The notes under the pieces: model-generated | Databases searched by the model: none | What the model was told of the DNA's origin: nothing | The model's input: the letters and a program-made list of their open reading frames with translations, nothing else | Shown here: positions 21,502-63,925 of the stretch, piece by piece | How positions within the stretch are numbered: the first letter of the stretch is position 1 | Layout: the number at the start of each line of letters is the position of its first letter | Assembly: GCF_005887555.1 (NCBI RefSeq) | Contig: NZ_VCIA01000001.1 | Span: 3,286,001-3,350,000, forward strand | Length of the DNA: 64,000 bases | Direction of reading: 5' to 3' | Source: Lentibacillus cibarius | GTDB lineage: Bacteria > Bacillota > Bacilli > Bacillales > Amphibacillaceae | Translations under genes and position numbers: made by a program

Positions 21502-21529
21502 ATTGATTAAGTTTAAAATATCAAAAAGA

Positions 21530-21566
21530 AAAACCTGCAGAAATAACTCTGCAGGTCCTTTTGTTT
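21530..21566 (-). terminator. Second hairpin, terminator-like on the minus strand
   Basis: Stem ACCTGCAG / CTGCAGGT. On the minus strand it is followed by TTTTTCTTTTT. Its source gene is unclear. Confidence 0.5.
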
Positions 21567-21820
21567 TCGTATTGGAAAACAAAAAGGCAAAGGGAGAGGA
21601 GAAACCGGAGGAAGAACTTATGGGGAAGTGTAAGTCTTCTCCGAGTTTTTGAAACAGCCAAGCAATTTTGTGCTGCTTCACTACGATAGTATAACCATCA
21701 TTATTTTTTATATACATAAACAAGCAATTTTTTGCTGAAGTAACTTTTTAAAAGGAAGTTTGGCTTCTGGTCTTGCGCTTTTAATCGGTTGCGATTATTA
21801 TGATTTATTGAGGTGGTTAT
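21567..21820. other. ylbG-rsmD spacer without a sure gene
   Basis: The whole gap from ylbG to rsmD is 361 bp. Besides the two hairpins, a minus-strand frame could encode a short peptide starting near 21677 (VKQHKIAWLFQK...), with no clear ribosome site and no stop before the hairpin. I see no firm gene here. Confidence 0.4.
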
Positions 21821-57649: not shown

Positions 57650-57917
57650 CATAAAGGTTCAATTGAATATATTGATTATGATGACGGAGACAGTATGAAT
57701 GCCGCCACTGCCCAGCGAATCAGGGATGGTGAAAGCCTGATACAGCAAGGCACTTCAGAAGATCACTCCCGAGTATCCATTTTGAATACGAGTAGAAATG
57801 GACGGTTCATTCCCGTTACAGATATCAAGTGAATTTAAAATGAGCGCTAATTTTAAATTTATAAGGGTGGTACCGCGAGTCTTCTCGTCCCTTTTTGGGA
57901 TAGAGAGGACTTTTTTT
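57650..57917 (+). ncRNA. T-box riboswitch leader of ileS
   Basis: The conserved T-box sequence AGGGTGGTACCGCG lies at about 57865. It is followed by a terminator stem (AGTCTTCTCGTCCC with GGGATAGAGAGGACT, then TTTTTTT). In stem I a likely specifier is ATC (57762-57764), an isoleucine codon. Uncharged tRNA-Ile would favour the antiterminator and switch ileS on. Confidence 0.93.
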
Positions 57918-57992: not shown

Positions 57993-60749
57993 TTGGATTA
58001 TAAAGATACATTACTGATGCCAAAGACTAAGTTTCCGATGCGCGGGAATTTACCAAATAAAGAACCTGAGCGTCAGCAAAAATGGGATGACGATCGAATT
58101 TATGAAAAAGGGTTGGAACGCACGCAAGGACGTCCACTGTTTATCCTGCATGATGGCCCTCCATATGCGAATGGCGACTTGCATATCGGACACGCCCTTA
58201 ACAAAATATTGAAAGACTTTATCACAAGATATAAATCAATGAGCGGTTATCACGCACCATATGTTCCTGGCTGGGATACGCACGGGTTGCCAATAGAAAC
58301 GGCTTTGACGAAAAAGAAAAAAGTTGACCGGAAAAAGATGAGCATTCCTGAATTCAGACAAAAGTGTGCCGAATATGCTATGGTGCAGCTTGATAATCAG
58401 CGTAATCAATTCAAAAAACTCGGTGTCCGTGGAGACTGGGAAAATCCGTATATCACCCTAACGAAAGATTATGAAGCCGCACAAATCAAAGTGTTTGGTG
58501 AAATGGCCAAAAAAGGCTATATTTACCGGGGGCTGAAACCCGTTTACTGGTCACCTTCTTCAGAGTCAGCTTTGGCAGAGGCGGAAATTGAATACCATGA
58601 TAAACGGTCACCATCCATTTATGTGACATTTGACGTGACAGACGGCAAAGATGTCCTGGATGGTGATGAGAAAATCATCATTTGGACGACAACACCATGG
58701 ACGATTCCTGCCAATCTTGGAATTGCCTTCCATCCAGAACTGGAGTATGCCGTTGTCGCGGTGAATGGTGAGAAATATGTGATTGCCCATGAATTACTGG
58801 AGACGCTGACAGAGACGCTGGAGTGGGAAAACCCGGAAGTTATTAAAACGTTTAAAGGTGAAAAAGCAGATAAAGTTGTAGCTAGACACCCGTTTTACGA
58901 TCGTGACTCCCTTGTCATGCTTGGTGAACATGTGACGACTGATGCTGGTACCGGCTGTGTTCATACAGCACCAGGACATGGGGAGGATGACTTCTATATG
59001 TCACGAACATATGGTATCGAACCGCTCTCCCCGGTTGATGACAAGGGCTATTTCACAAGTGAAGCACCTGGATTTGAAGGGCTGTTTTACGACCAGGCAA
59101 ATAAAGTGATTACTGAAAAACTGGACGAAGCGGGCGCGTTGCTGCAGCTTACATTCATTACCCATTCGTATCCGCATGATTGGCGTACGAAAAAACCGAC
59201 GATTTTCCGGGCGACGTCCCAATGGTTTGCTTCTATTAAAGACTTTCGTCAGGATATTCTGGATGAAATCAATCGAATCAACTGGTATCCGGCATGGGGG
59301 GAAACACGCCTTTATAACATGGTACGCGATCGTGAAGACTGGTGCATCTCCCGCCAGCGGACTTGGGGTGTGCCAATGCCCGTATTCTACGCTGAAGATG
59401 GTACACCAATCATCAATGATGAGACAATTACACATGTTTCTAATTTATTTGCTGAACACGGGTCAAACGTTTGGTTTGAGTGGGAGGCAAGTGAGCTTTT
59501 GCCGGAAGGGTTCACTTCCGAACATAGCCCAAATGGCAAATTTACAAAAGAAACGGATATTATGGACGTCTGGTTTGACTCCGGTTCCTCACATGAGGCT
59601 GTTTTGATGGGAAGGGAAGATCATAAGCGCCCCGCTGATGTTTACCTGGAAGGGAGCGATCAGTATCGTGGCTGGTTTAATTCTTCCATCTCAACAGCAG
59701 TGGCGGTGACCGGTAAGGCACCGTTCGAAACGATTATCAGCCATGGTTTTACACTTGACGGTAATGGACGTAAAATGAGCAAGTCGCTCGGCAATGTCAT
59801 GGATCCGTTGAAAGTTCAAAAACAGCTTGGTTCGGATATTTTACGCCTTTGGGTGTCATCTGTTGATTATCAAGCAGATGTGCGTATTTCGCAGGAGATT
59901 CTCAAACAGATTTCAGAGGCTTACCGGAAGATCCGTAACACCATCCGGTTCATGCTCGGAAACTTAGCTGATTTTGACCCGGAAAGAGATGCAGTGCCTG
60001 AAGCAGAAATGGAAGAAGCTGACCGTTACATGCTGCACCGGCTGCAACATGTGCTAAAAAATGTCAGGGACAGTTATGACGTTTATGAGTTTTCACCGAT
60101 TTACTCACAGATTCATAATTTCTGTACCGTTGATTTAAGCTCATTCTACCTTGATTTTGCCAAAGATATTTTATATATCGAGGCAGCTAACAGTCATCGA
60201 CGCAGAAGCATTCAGACAGCTTATTACGAGATTGTAACTACCTTAGTGAAACTGCTGACACCAATCATTCCTCATACGGCTGATGAAATTTGGGAATACA
60301 TTCCTGGTGTAACGGAGGAAAGTGTTCAGCTGACAGATATTCCTGAGCCAAGAGACATTACTAGCTTTAGCGAAATTTATGAGAAATGGGATCACTTTAT
60401 GCAGGTAAGGGACGATGTCTTGAAAGCATTGGAAGAAGCACGGGAAGCGAAAATCATCGGAAAGTCGCTTGAAGCTAAGCTCACCATCGTGCCAAAAGAC
60501 AACAAGACGAAAGAAGTGCTCGATGGTATTCCCAATGTGCATCAGCTATTCATCGTTTCTGAAGCTGATATTACCGATGAAGCACCGGATGCGAATGAGT
60601 ATGCAAACGTACATGTGCTTGTAGAAAAACATCCCGGCGAAAAGTGTGCACGCTGCTGGACAGCTGCCGAAACTGTCGGTCAGGATGAGCACCACCCGGA
60701 TTTATGTTCCCGGTGTGCAGATATTGTGAACGAACATTACAGTGCATGA
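57993..60749 (+). CDS. ileS: Isoleucyl-tRNA synthetase
   Basis: A 918-residue class I synthetase. It has the HIGH motif ([11 protein letters not shown], about residue 57), the CP1 editing domain (about 200-390, with [15 protein letters not shown]), the KMSKS motif ([10 protein letters not shown], about 594), the anticodon-binding domain, and a C-terminal zinc site with CARCW and CSRC. This is the bacterial, mupirocin-sensitive type layout. The start is a TTG at 57993 with GGAGGAAA upstream. It is controlled by the T-box leader and ends in a strong terminator. Confidence 0.98.
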
Positions 60750-60786: not shown

Positions 60787-60829
60787 AAAACAGGGATACT
60801 GATGAAGTCAGTATCCCTGTTTTAGTATA
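60787..60829 (+). terminator. Terminator after ileS
   Basis: Perfect stem AAACAGGGATACTGA / TCAGTATCCCTGTTT with a TGAAG loop. Confidence 0.92.
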
Positions 60830-60844
60830 AATTTTGCGTACGTA

Positions 60845-61560
60845 GGACTCGAGAAGCCGCCTCGAGACCAAATCGAAGCACAAAAGTGGTAGAAAAGGTC
60901 TTGAGAAGCCGTCTCGCGACCAAATCGAAGCACAAAAGTGGTAGAAAAGGTCTTGAGAAGCCGTCTCGAAACCAAATCAAAGCACAAAAGTGGTAGAAAA
61001 GGTCTTGAGAAGCCGTCTCGAAACCAAATCGAAGCACAAAAGTGGCCGAAAAGGTCTTGAGAAGCTGTCTCGAAACCAAATAGAAGCTCAAAAGTAGTCG
61101 AAAAGGTCTTGAGAGGCCGTCTCGAAACCAAATTGAAGCACAAAGGTAGTCGAAAAGGTCCCGAGAAGCCGCCTCGAAACCAAATCGAAGCACAAAAGTG
61201 GCCGAAAAGGTCCCGAGAAGCCGTCTCGAGACCAAATCGAAGCACAAAAGTAGTCGAAAAGGTCTCGAGAAGCCGCCTCGAGACCAAATCGAAGCACAAA
61301 AGTGGCCGAAAAGGTCTTGAGAGGCCGTCTCGAAACCAAATCGAAGCACAAAAGTGGTAGAAAAGGTCTCGAGAGGCCGTCTCGAAACCAAATTGAAGCA
61401 CAAAAGTAGTCGAAAAGGTCCCGAGAAGCCGCCTCGAAACCAAATCGAAGCACAAAAGTGGCCGAAAAGGTCTTGAGAGGCTGTCTCGAAACCAAAACGG
61501 AGCTCATATGCGGCCGAAAAGGTCTCGAGAAGGCGTCTCAAGACCAAACTGGCACCTGAA
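60845..61560. repeat. Tandem array of fourteen 52-bp palindrome-bearing units
   Basis: Fourteen palindromes start at 60845 and every 52 bp up to 61521, without a single insertion or deletion. Each unit is a 25-bp inverted repeat (left arm GGTCTYGAG-like, 7-base centre AAGCCGY, right arm CTCGARACC-like) and a 27-bp linker (AAATCGAAGCACAAAAGTGG, then CCGAAAA or a variant). The best palindrome is copy 9 (61261-61285), with 9+9 matched bases. GAG...CTC is unchanged in all copies. Linkers fall into three variants (GTGGTAG, GTGGCCG, GTAGTCG). Edge copies are the most diverged. Stop-free frames through it are a by-product, because 52 is not a multiple of 3. Confidence 0.95.
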
Positions 61561-61724
61561 GCGGAAATCCAAGGCACACGCCGATTGTTTCGTATTTAAA
61601 TGGTGAAATTCACTCATATAGTAATAAAAGTCATAATGAAGTCAGGATTTTAAGTGTATGATAATACAGGGTAACTGTTTTTGTGGTAAAATAATCAAGA
61701 GAGAAAACAGTTGGAGGAACTAGC

Positions 61725-62225
61725 ATGTATGTATATTACATATTGGCACTACTTGTGATTGCGATCGATCAGCTGACTAAGTGGGCAGTTGTAAAAACCA
61801 TGACGTTTGGGGAACAAATAACGATTATTGGTGACTTCTTCTATTTAACGTCCCATCGTAATAGTGGGGCGGCGTGGGGCATTTTACAGGGACAAATGGC
61901 CTTTTTCTACATCATAACAGTGATTGTCATTATCGGTGTGATTTATTTCATGCAAACATATGCAAAGGGAAATCAGTTGCTGTCTATTGCGTTAAGCCTG
62001 ATTCTTGGCGGTGCAATCGGAAATTTCATTGACCGACTGTTCCGAAATGAAGTTGTGGATTTTTTTGACTTCATTATTTTCGGGTATGATTATCCGATCT
62101 TTAATATTGCAGACGCCTCCTTGGTTGTTGGTGTGATTCTGGTAATTATCTCAACTATTATAGATGAACGAAAGGAAAAGCGTAAACATGATACAACAGC
62201 ACAGCGTAACGGAAACGGAGCATAA
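61725..62225 (+). CDS. lspA: Lipoprotein signal peptidase LspA
   Basis: A 166-residue membrane aspartic protease with four helices that removes signal peptides from prolipoproteins such as CtaC and YlaJ of this window. It has [20 protein letters not shown], and the catalytic Asp in [16 protein letters not shown] and [23 protein letters not shown] precedes the ATG. It overlaps rluD by 38 bases. Confidence 0.97.
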
Positions 62226-63121: not shown

Positions 63122-63144
63122 AAGTTTAGTTAATAGTGAACCTT

Positions 63145-63810
<666 letters not shown>

Positions 63811-63821
63811 ATAAACAGACC

Positions 63822-63925
63822 TTTAAGTAAATCCAGTGAGGTTTAGAAGGTCGCTTACAGGAAACGTGTATTGATTCTAGGGACACGTGTACCTCTTTGC
63901 GGCCTAACGCAAAGAGGTTTTTTAA
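63822..63925 (+). ncRNA. PyrR-responsive attenuator 2 (upstream of pyrP)
   Basis: ATCCAGTGAGGTTTAGAAGGT at about 63832 is the PyrR site. A terminator ACCTCTTTGCG / CGCAAAGAGGTTTTTT follows at 63890-63924. Confidence 0.9.

Follow-up and report, generated by a model that had tools for sequence, protein, structure and literature searches.

The array of inverted repeats between ileS and lspA is best read as belonging to a class of palindromic arrays, intergenic and dispersed, which occur in many genera of the order. At roughly even odds (≈ 0.5), these are BIME-like dispersed arrays of putatively protein-recognised dyads placed five helical turns apart; geometry, period, covariation, location and turnover were all read directly from the arrays, and it is the part of the protein that calls for the conditional. 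The coordinates of the array and its surroundings are compiled in Table 1, where positions refer to the window, i.e. the whole stretch of 64,000 nucleotides of Lentibacillus cibarius DNA that was analysed.

Table 1. The ileS-lspA array and neighbouring features in the window.
Feature	Position	Strand	Basis or remark
Array of 14 dyads (13 full units and the last dyad)	60845..61545	+ (A-rich strand)	TRF, in-register reading
First dyad	60845..60869		remaining dyads start at 60897, 60949, 61001, 61053, 61105, 61157, 61209, 61261, 61313, 61365, 61417, 61469, 61521
Sole copy with a perfect 9-bp inverted repeat	61261..61285		
Degenerate 3′ edge of the array	61494..61572		aberrant linker of unit 13, then last dyad and decayed linker
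ileS, isoleucine--tRNA ligase, upstream neighbour	57993..60749	+	NCBIfam TIGR00392, 1030.6 bits (cut-off 621.4)
lspA, signal peptidase II, downstream neighbour	61725..62225	+	NCBIfam TIGR00077, 156.6 bits (cut-off 73.95)
Hairpin, 13-bp arms followed by TTTA, probable ileS terminator	60790..60820	+	read directly; not listed by the terminator scan

The sole array that TRF returned for the 64-kb window (60844-61548, period 52, 13.6 copies, 0% indels, score 1032) is resolved by in-register reading into units of a 25-bp dyad and a 27-bp linker, with a step of exactly 52 bp and no indel, such that the dyads start at 60845 + 52i (i = 0..13) and the last one ends at 61545. The 14 copies, the exact period and the lack of indels, all given in the preliminary description of this gap between ileS and lspA, are borne out by both TRF and the in-register reading, and the elements GAG (dyad positions 7-9) and CTC (17-19), which it took to be invariant, are indeed present in 14 of 14 window copies. 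The inverted repeat of 9+7+9 bp that it ascribed to each unit stands in part: the dyads are there in all 14 copies, but perfect 9-bp arms are found in one only (at 61261), while four copies have one mismatched pair and nine have two. The mismatched pairs are all C/A or T/G, bar one A/A and one T/C. The first dyad starts 24 bp 3′ of the ileS hairpin. The leaders recognised in the window, a T-box at 57672-57895 (ileS), ylbH at 21523-21646, and PyrR at 63137-63250 and 63816-63925, are all ordinary.

A genome-wide search for like units, asked for in the earlier account, revealed nine more loci in the same genome (G000, 3.66 Mb), with 66-86% identity, so that ten loci are counted together with the window array. 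Eight of the nine stretches surrounding these other loci gave a TRF period of 52, three of the eight also showing other overlapping or shorter TRF rows; in the ninth (L027), no more than 1.6 units are present. One unit minus one base was recorded at L020, and degenerate edge units are seen in arrays of this genome. The identity between eight of its arrays amounts to 0.91 in the arms, 0.64 in the loops and 0.68 in the linkers, to be compared with 0.93, 0.87 and 0.87 within arrays; addition of a ninth array with an unrelated linker (L028) shifts the between-array values to 0.90, 0.60 and 0.60, respectively. The loci stand on both sides of dnaA, and the orientation of the A-rich strand with respect to replication is mixed by eye, with no bias claimed. 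An eleventh, weak place (C1:2214666, L082) was rejected, as TRF showed no 52-bp array there; the flanks of the eleven loci have no DNA in common beyond one 18-bp and one 25-bp match. Tandem repeats of 44, 42/21 and 22 bp surround the 1.6-unit remnant (L027:4314-4785).

For the period, 97 stretches (504 kb) were analysed, chosen mostly by matches to R1, a profile made from 38 units, or to the broader profile R2. Counting the best-scoring TRF row of period 25-80 in each cluster, 97 arrays were obtained, with 79 at 52, 16 at 51, and one each at 47 and 44, i.e. 95 of 97 at 51 or 52. The array of period 44, located in L027, is an unrelated repeat, and the one of period 47 (L149:2045-2174, congener G007) is of this class, short and irregular with 8% indels, and follows a regular 52-bp array. 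The symmetry, covariation, open-frame, folding and footprint results were derived from a narrower set of 91 arrays (74 at 52 and 17 at 51, from 82 of the 97 stretches), which by an overlap rule is without four arrays (L021, L149, L179, L294) and whose filter of 48-56 hid the period of 47 in L149. Consensus lengths of 50 (L172) and 53 (L292) letters were met despite TRF periods of 51 and 52.

Because R1 and R2 might favour 52, two checks of the period were made without them. A profile-free pattern, consisting of GAGA-N5-TCTC twice with a gap of 24-54 in between, permits periods from 37 to 67; it matched in 36 of 397 genomes, with up to 203 matches in one genome, whereas the reversed control pattern was empty in all but seven (45 matches in G292 and 1-3 in six others, among them G043 with 3 reversed vs 8 forward matches). 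The 45 control matches in G292 point to some other repeat family there. Places were listed for 14 array genomes only, and among these 98 plus-strand places, two of which (G213) overlap others, 82 are at 52, 9 at 51 and 7 at 50, 53 or 54; hence 91 of 98 fall on 51 or 52 with the full range of 37-67 allowed. Ten further places in nine genomes, with periods of 40-66, were judged unrelated, five of them being alike and Fur-box-like. For the second check, evenly spaced 20-kb stretches, 400 kb per genome, were taken from G477 and G007. In G477, 14 of 23 tandem arrays (period of at least 25) have a period of 52, the rest 30-42 or 123, with none at 43-51 or 53-122; in G007, it is two of six, the others having periods of 36, 40, 42 and 115. 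To judge by the census of 97 arrays, the profile-free pattern and the even samples, neither chance nor model bias accounts for the period. The 40- and 42-bp arrays of G007 (L324:8969-9309 and L334:6759-7022) are each built of about two half-units of 20-21 bp, near whole helical turns.

At the level of single steps, 512 of the 562 distances between consecutive dyads at 82 loci are 51 or 52, and no enrichment of helical secondary spacings such as 41 or 62 was detected. Concerted evolution could hold a unit length without selection. In 25 adjacent unit pairs the linkers are less than 50% identical, and 21 of these pairs still step by 51 or 52, with the six arm letters outside the search motif 0.70-0.78 identical; with linkers near random yet dyad and spacing kept, the constraint seems to act after amplification. 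Spacing and mirror symmetry persist while letters and positions change, and the geometry itself seems to matter.

The symmetry is weak in single arrays, with 32 of 91 reaching p 0.05 in a per-array dyad test with permuted consensus letters (median z 1.5), so that the case rests on covariation over arrays. In the 91 array consensuses, opposite arm letters are complementary above a control with right arms of other genera at distances 6-11, 13 and 14 from the centre, each with two to four pair types, by z-scores that ignore the relatedness of arrays within a genus; distances 3-5 and 12 are hardly variable, and beyond 14 the excess of complementarity ends. The footprint, with genomes equally weighted, features AAA at −17 to −15, G at −12 (0.98) and GAGA at −6 to −3 on the left, and TCTC at +3 to +6, C at +12 (0.94) and AA at +15 and +16 on the right, about 34 bp being conserved in all. 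Since the dyads were placed by means of GTC/GAGA/TCTC/GAC letters and the strand was set by A-richness, the conservation of these letters is partly built in, and the A at +15 (0.78 vs 0.22 for T) is partly, not wholly, due to the choice of the A-rich strand. Left and right of the dyad, the A-tracts occupy one and the same strand, which confers polarity on the unit. At least three dyad types, sorted by eye and all at 52, are present in the even sample of G477, namely GAGA/TCTC, TAGAA/TTCTA and GAGGTCcTCAT-N7-ATGAaGACCTC; the period outlives the motif, which is the oddest result of this work. Higher-order repeats of 2-5 units are found in several arrays. The five-turn period and the dyad symmetry, from which the preliminary description argued, look constrained (95 of 97 arrays, 21 of 25 linker-diverged pairs, arm identity of 0.91, covariation); the binding of a protein, its further step, we infer.

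The window array itself had no BLAST match in 59 relatives. R1 gave weak matches in five other genomes out of 146 searched, all of them within repeats of 51-52-bp period with other letters; in one of them (L048/L086) the divergence is too great for TRF, and the period becomes visible by autocorrelation (0.40). R2, the genome counts of which are approximate both ways (weak single matches are perhaps false, and large searches were filtered more strictly), matched in 30 of 159 genomes and 10 of 46 genera of the taxonomic family, in 54 of 397 genomes and 27 of 135 genera of the order, and in 6 of 398 genomes of a class sample. Three of these six lie outside the order: G667 is a true case with a period of 52; G756 and G846 were rejected, their periods of 60 and 63 and their structure being different, which demonstrates that weak single R2 matches can be false. 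The arrays analysed represent 31 genomes in 15 genera and 7 families. Plasmid and phage records gave no match to the window array, and plasmids none to L283; L294 matched only genes of cell-wall enzymes there, and this through the margin of the query, which lies outside the array. One pair each was found in 43 viral contigs, with lengths of 63-66, which is all that the pattern allowed; in two of the 43 (L230, L265) the pair lies inside a repeat of about two copies with a period of 55 or 53, and none of the 43 holds a longer array of this class. A pattern scan of genome contigs yielded seven single matches, none of them in a tandem repeat with a period of at least 25.

The arrays avoid divergent gene pairs. 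With genes taken as open frames called by length, not curated, the 83 unique gaps with arrays of period 51 or 52 comprise 49 tandem, 28 convergent and 6 divergent ones (p 2e-4 for convergent vs divergent); a circular chromosome has equal numbers of convergent and divergent pairs. Gaps in which both flanking frames reach 450 nt or more number 37 tandem, 20 convergent and 2 divergent, or 38, 23 and 2 if arrays sharing a gap are counted apart with these long flanks. The positions of the arrays turn over between species. Orthologous loci do occur in sister species, L276/L281 and L280/L286, with flanks 88-94% identical and the same order of two sub-arrays each (the dyad chain of L276 missed the first sub-array). 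L020 in the genome of the window and L153 in the congener G007 have both neighbours in common and differ in their dyad letters; the NERD-gene locus common to these two and, on one side, to L297 may be truly orthologous or a coincidence. That L145, L308 and L295 all have fumC as a neighbour was put down to chance on a rough estimate, the arrays not all being on one side of it. Arrays can spread as blocks: three places of G011 (L155, L156, L086) share a stretch of ≈ 270-320 bp that includes four unlike 52-bp units and is 87-90% identical. As to a mover, the Y1 transposase (PF01797) was rejected, since it is not associated with array genomes (25 of 30 vs 94 of 129 others, Fisher p 0.35; five array genomes have none). 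In L297 (2142-3322, G306), the two parts of a 51-bp array have a pair of transposase-like frames of IS3 type between them.

In the reading favoured here, each dyad would be bound by a dimer of a putative DNA-binding or DNA-wrapping protein, and the dimers would line up on one face of the helix. One helical turn separates the conserved points at about ±5 from those at about ±15.5, and a period of 51-52 bp comes to about five turns, so that all of these points face one side, as protein dimers or protein-wrapped DNA would need. The arrays would probably grow and shrink by whole units, through slippage or unequal exchange, and sometimes spread as blocks; found, as it appears, mostly after gene 3′ ends, they may be protein-loaded architectural or topological stations, like BIME, yet not REPs. 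The REP/BIME elements of enterobacteria are dispersed palindromic intergenic repeats, often clustered and near gene 3′ ends, with species-specific letters; REPs are moved by Y1 (RAYT) transposases, and REP/BIME elements are bound by gyrase or IHF. The arrays resemble them as dispersed extragenic palindromes (ten loci in the genome of the window, intergenic by open-frame calls) that avoid divergent promoter regions, and differ in their one period of 51-52 bp in simple tandem, with up to ≈ 23 units (L294), in their motif and in the missing association with Y1 transposases. CRISPR, with palindromic repeats, constant spacing and unique spacers, is likewise a palindromic repeat at constant spacing, but here the linkers within an array are repeated copies and not unique. 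In contrast to type III toxin-antitoxin repeats, no common toxin gene stands beside the arrays (ileS and lspA here, other translations compared by eye). Other small tandem repeats, i.e. the 40/42-bp ones of G007 and the 44/42-bp ones of L027, share the genomes and have other periods and sequences. Such a protein, if found, would be an architectural factor of which, to date, nothing but the sites has been seen. Any host function is dispensable, given the patchy distribution (no R2 match in 7 of 11 congeners).

The most serious competitor of these protein-recognised dyads, which we consider possible and clearly the less probable of the two, is a selfish or neutral satellite, where dyad and length reflect the constraints of an amplifying enzyme or of a replication process. 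The dyad would then be read by a recombinase or transposase, or the unit be amplified by a ruler-like step, with no architectural protein bound and no host function. An amplification-set length explains the turnover and the many motifs well. In favour of a satellite, the arrays are patchy among congeners, the one at ileS-lspA is absent in 11 of 11, there are block copies in G011, degenerate edges in the genome of the window and higher-order repeats of 2-5 units, and several motifs share one period in G477, where their number fits a single sequence-specific protein poorly. It explains linker-diverged arrays less well, where 21 of 25 unit pairs retain dyad and spacing; orthologous arrays persisting across species and the lack of association of Y1 transposases also speak against it. 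Comparably tentative is the idea of a geometry-encoded array, in which selection or a ruler-like process fixes the five turns and the ≈ 30-bp dyad and leaves the letters, even the motif, free. If true, it would imply satellites whose conserved trait is the period, built by a wrapping or dimerising protein, or by a ruler-like enzyme that makes arrays grow, for which shape and spacing count more than the letters. A period kept to about one base over seven families despite divergence provides a handle on what fixes the length of bacterial satellites, and whether it is set by a bound protein or by the amplification machinery, the arrays offer a way in. Since some genomes (G477) are rich in arrays and congeners differ by gains or losses of them, they lend themselves readily to comparison between genomes and to deletion.

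An action as RNA, through transcribed hairpins or a series of weak terminators, is improbable. The 41-nt dyad consensuses do have some advantage over shuffles in folding (median MFE −9.8 kcal/mol, median z −1.5), and two of four window copies, folded as single-stranded DNA, reached z −3.5 and −3.0, but the other two fold no better than shuffles (−0.31 and −0.62), and the fold z of the consensuses is the same on both strands. On the T-rich strand TTTT follows the dyads and one unit was listed as terminator-like, though shuffles give 1.6. Arm mismatches at distances 6-14 on the A-rich strand are of G-U type in 40 cases and of A-C type in 51, with no strand bias, and this similar frequency does not favour RNA, since an RNA stem would favour one of them. 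Furthermore, the orientation in tandem contexts (30:19, p 0.15) is not significant, the window array and the arrays of ten other stretches have no Rfam match at gathering score (the best match of the window array has 27 bits vs 90 for a microRNA family), and RNA has no need of a 51/52 period. Even less credit is due to a partition centromere or the operator of a nearby regulator. In sopC of plasmid F, tandem inverted-repeat units of 43 bp, near-integer helical turns, form one site beside the partition operon; the arrays are similar in having tandem units each with an inverted repeat, of modest symmetry in single arrays here, and dissimilar in occupying ten dispersed chromosomal sites on both sides of dnaA, with ileS and lspA as neighbours and not parA/parB (most other arrays' neighbours were compared by eye). 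The orphan operator or partition site put forward in the preliminary description does not fare well against the ten loci, the avoidance of divergent pairs, the turnover of positions, the ileS-lspA locus that is not conserved, and the seven of 11 congeners without an R2 match. The least credible option of all is repetitive coding sequence: a minus-strand frame of 251 aa spans the window array, and 65 frames are open through arrays vs 31.7 expected from unit-permuted arrays, but 59 of 91 arrays have no frame open throughout, which in general upholds the earlier view of an array rather than a gene. Moreover, a period of 52 is not divisible by three, arrays of 51 bp occur alongside those of 52 bp, and Pfam gave nothing above cut-off for the 251-aa frame (DUF5346 with 20.0 bits, cut-off 27).

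Within 1.5 kb of lspA, TRF found such an array in 0 of 11 congeners. The preliminary description had held that absence in all close relatives would count against it, and the outcome is divided, the array being absent from this locus in 11 of 11 congeners and the class present, as four of the 11 have R2 matches (in one case a lone weak match). Array-bearing are, besides the genome of the window, G007, G008 and G011; array-free are G002-G006, G009 and G010. The gap upstream of lspA may be a place where insertions are tolerated. In the congeners G011 (L033, about 900-1500) and G006 (L032), inserts unrelated to the array and several hundred bp long lie upstream of lspA; they are partly GC-rich with CTTTCCG/CGGAAAG-like pieces, as seen by eye.
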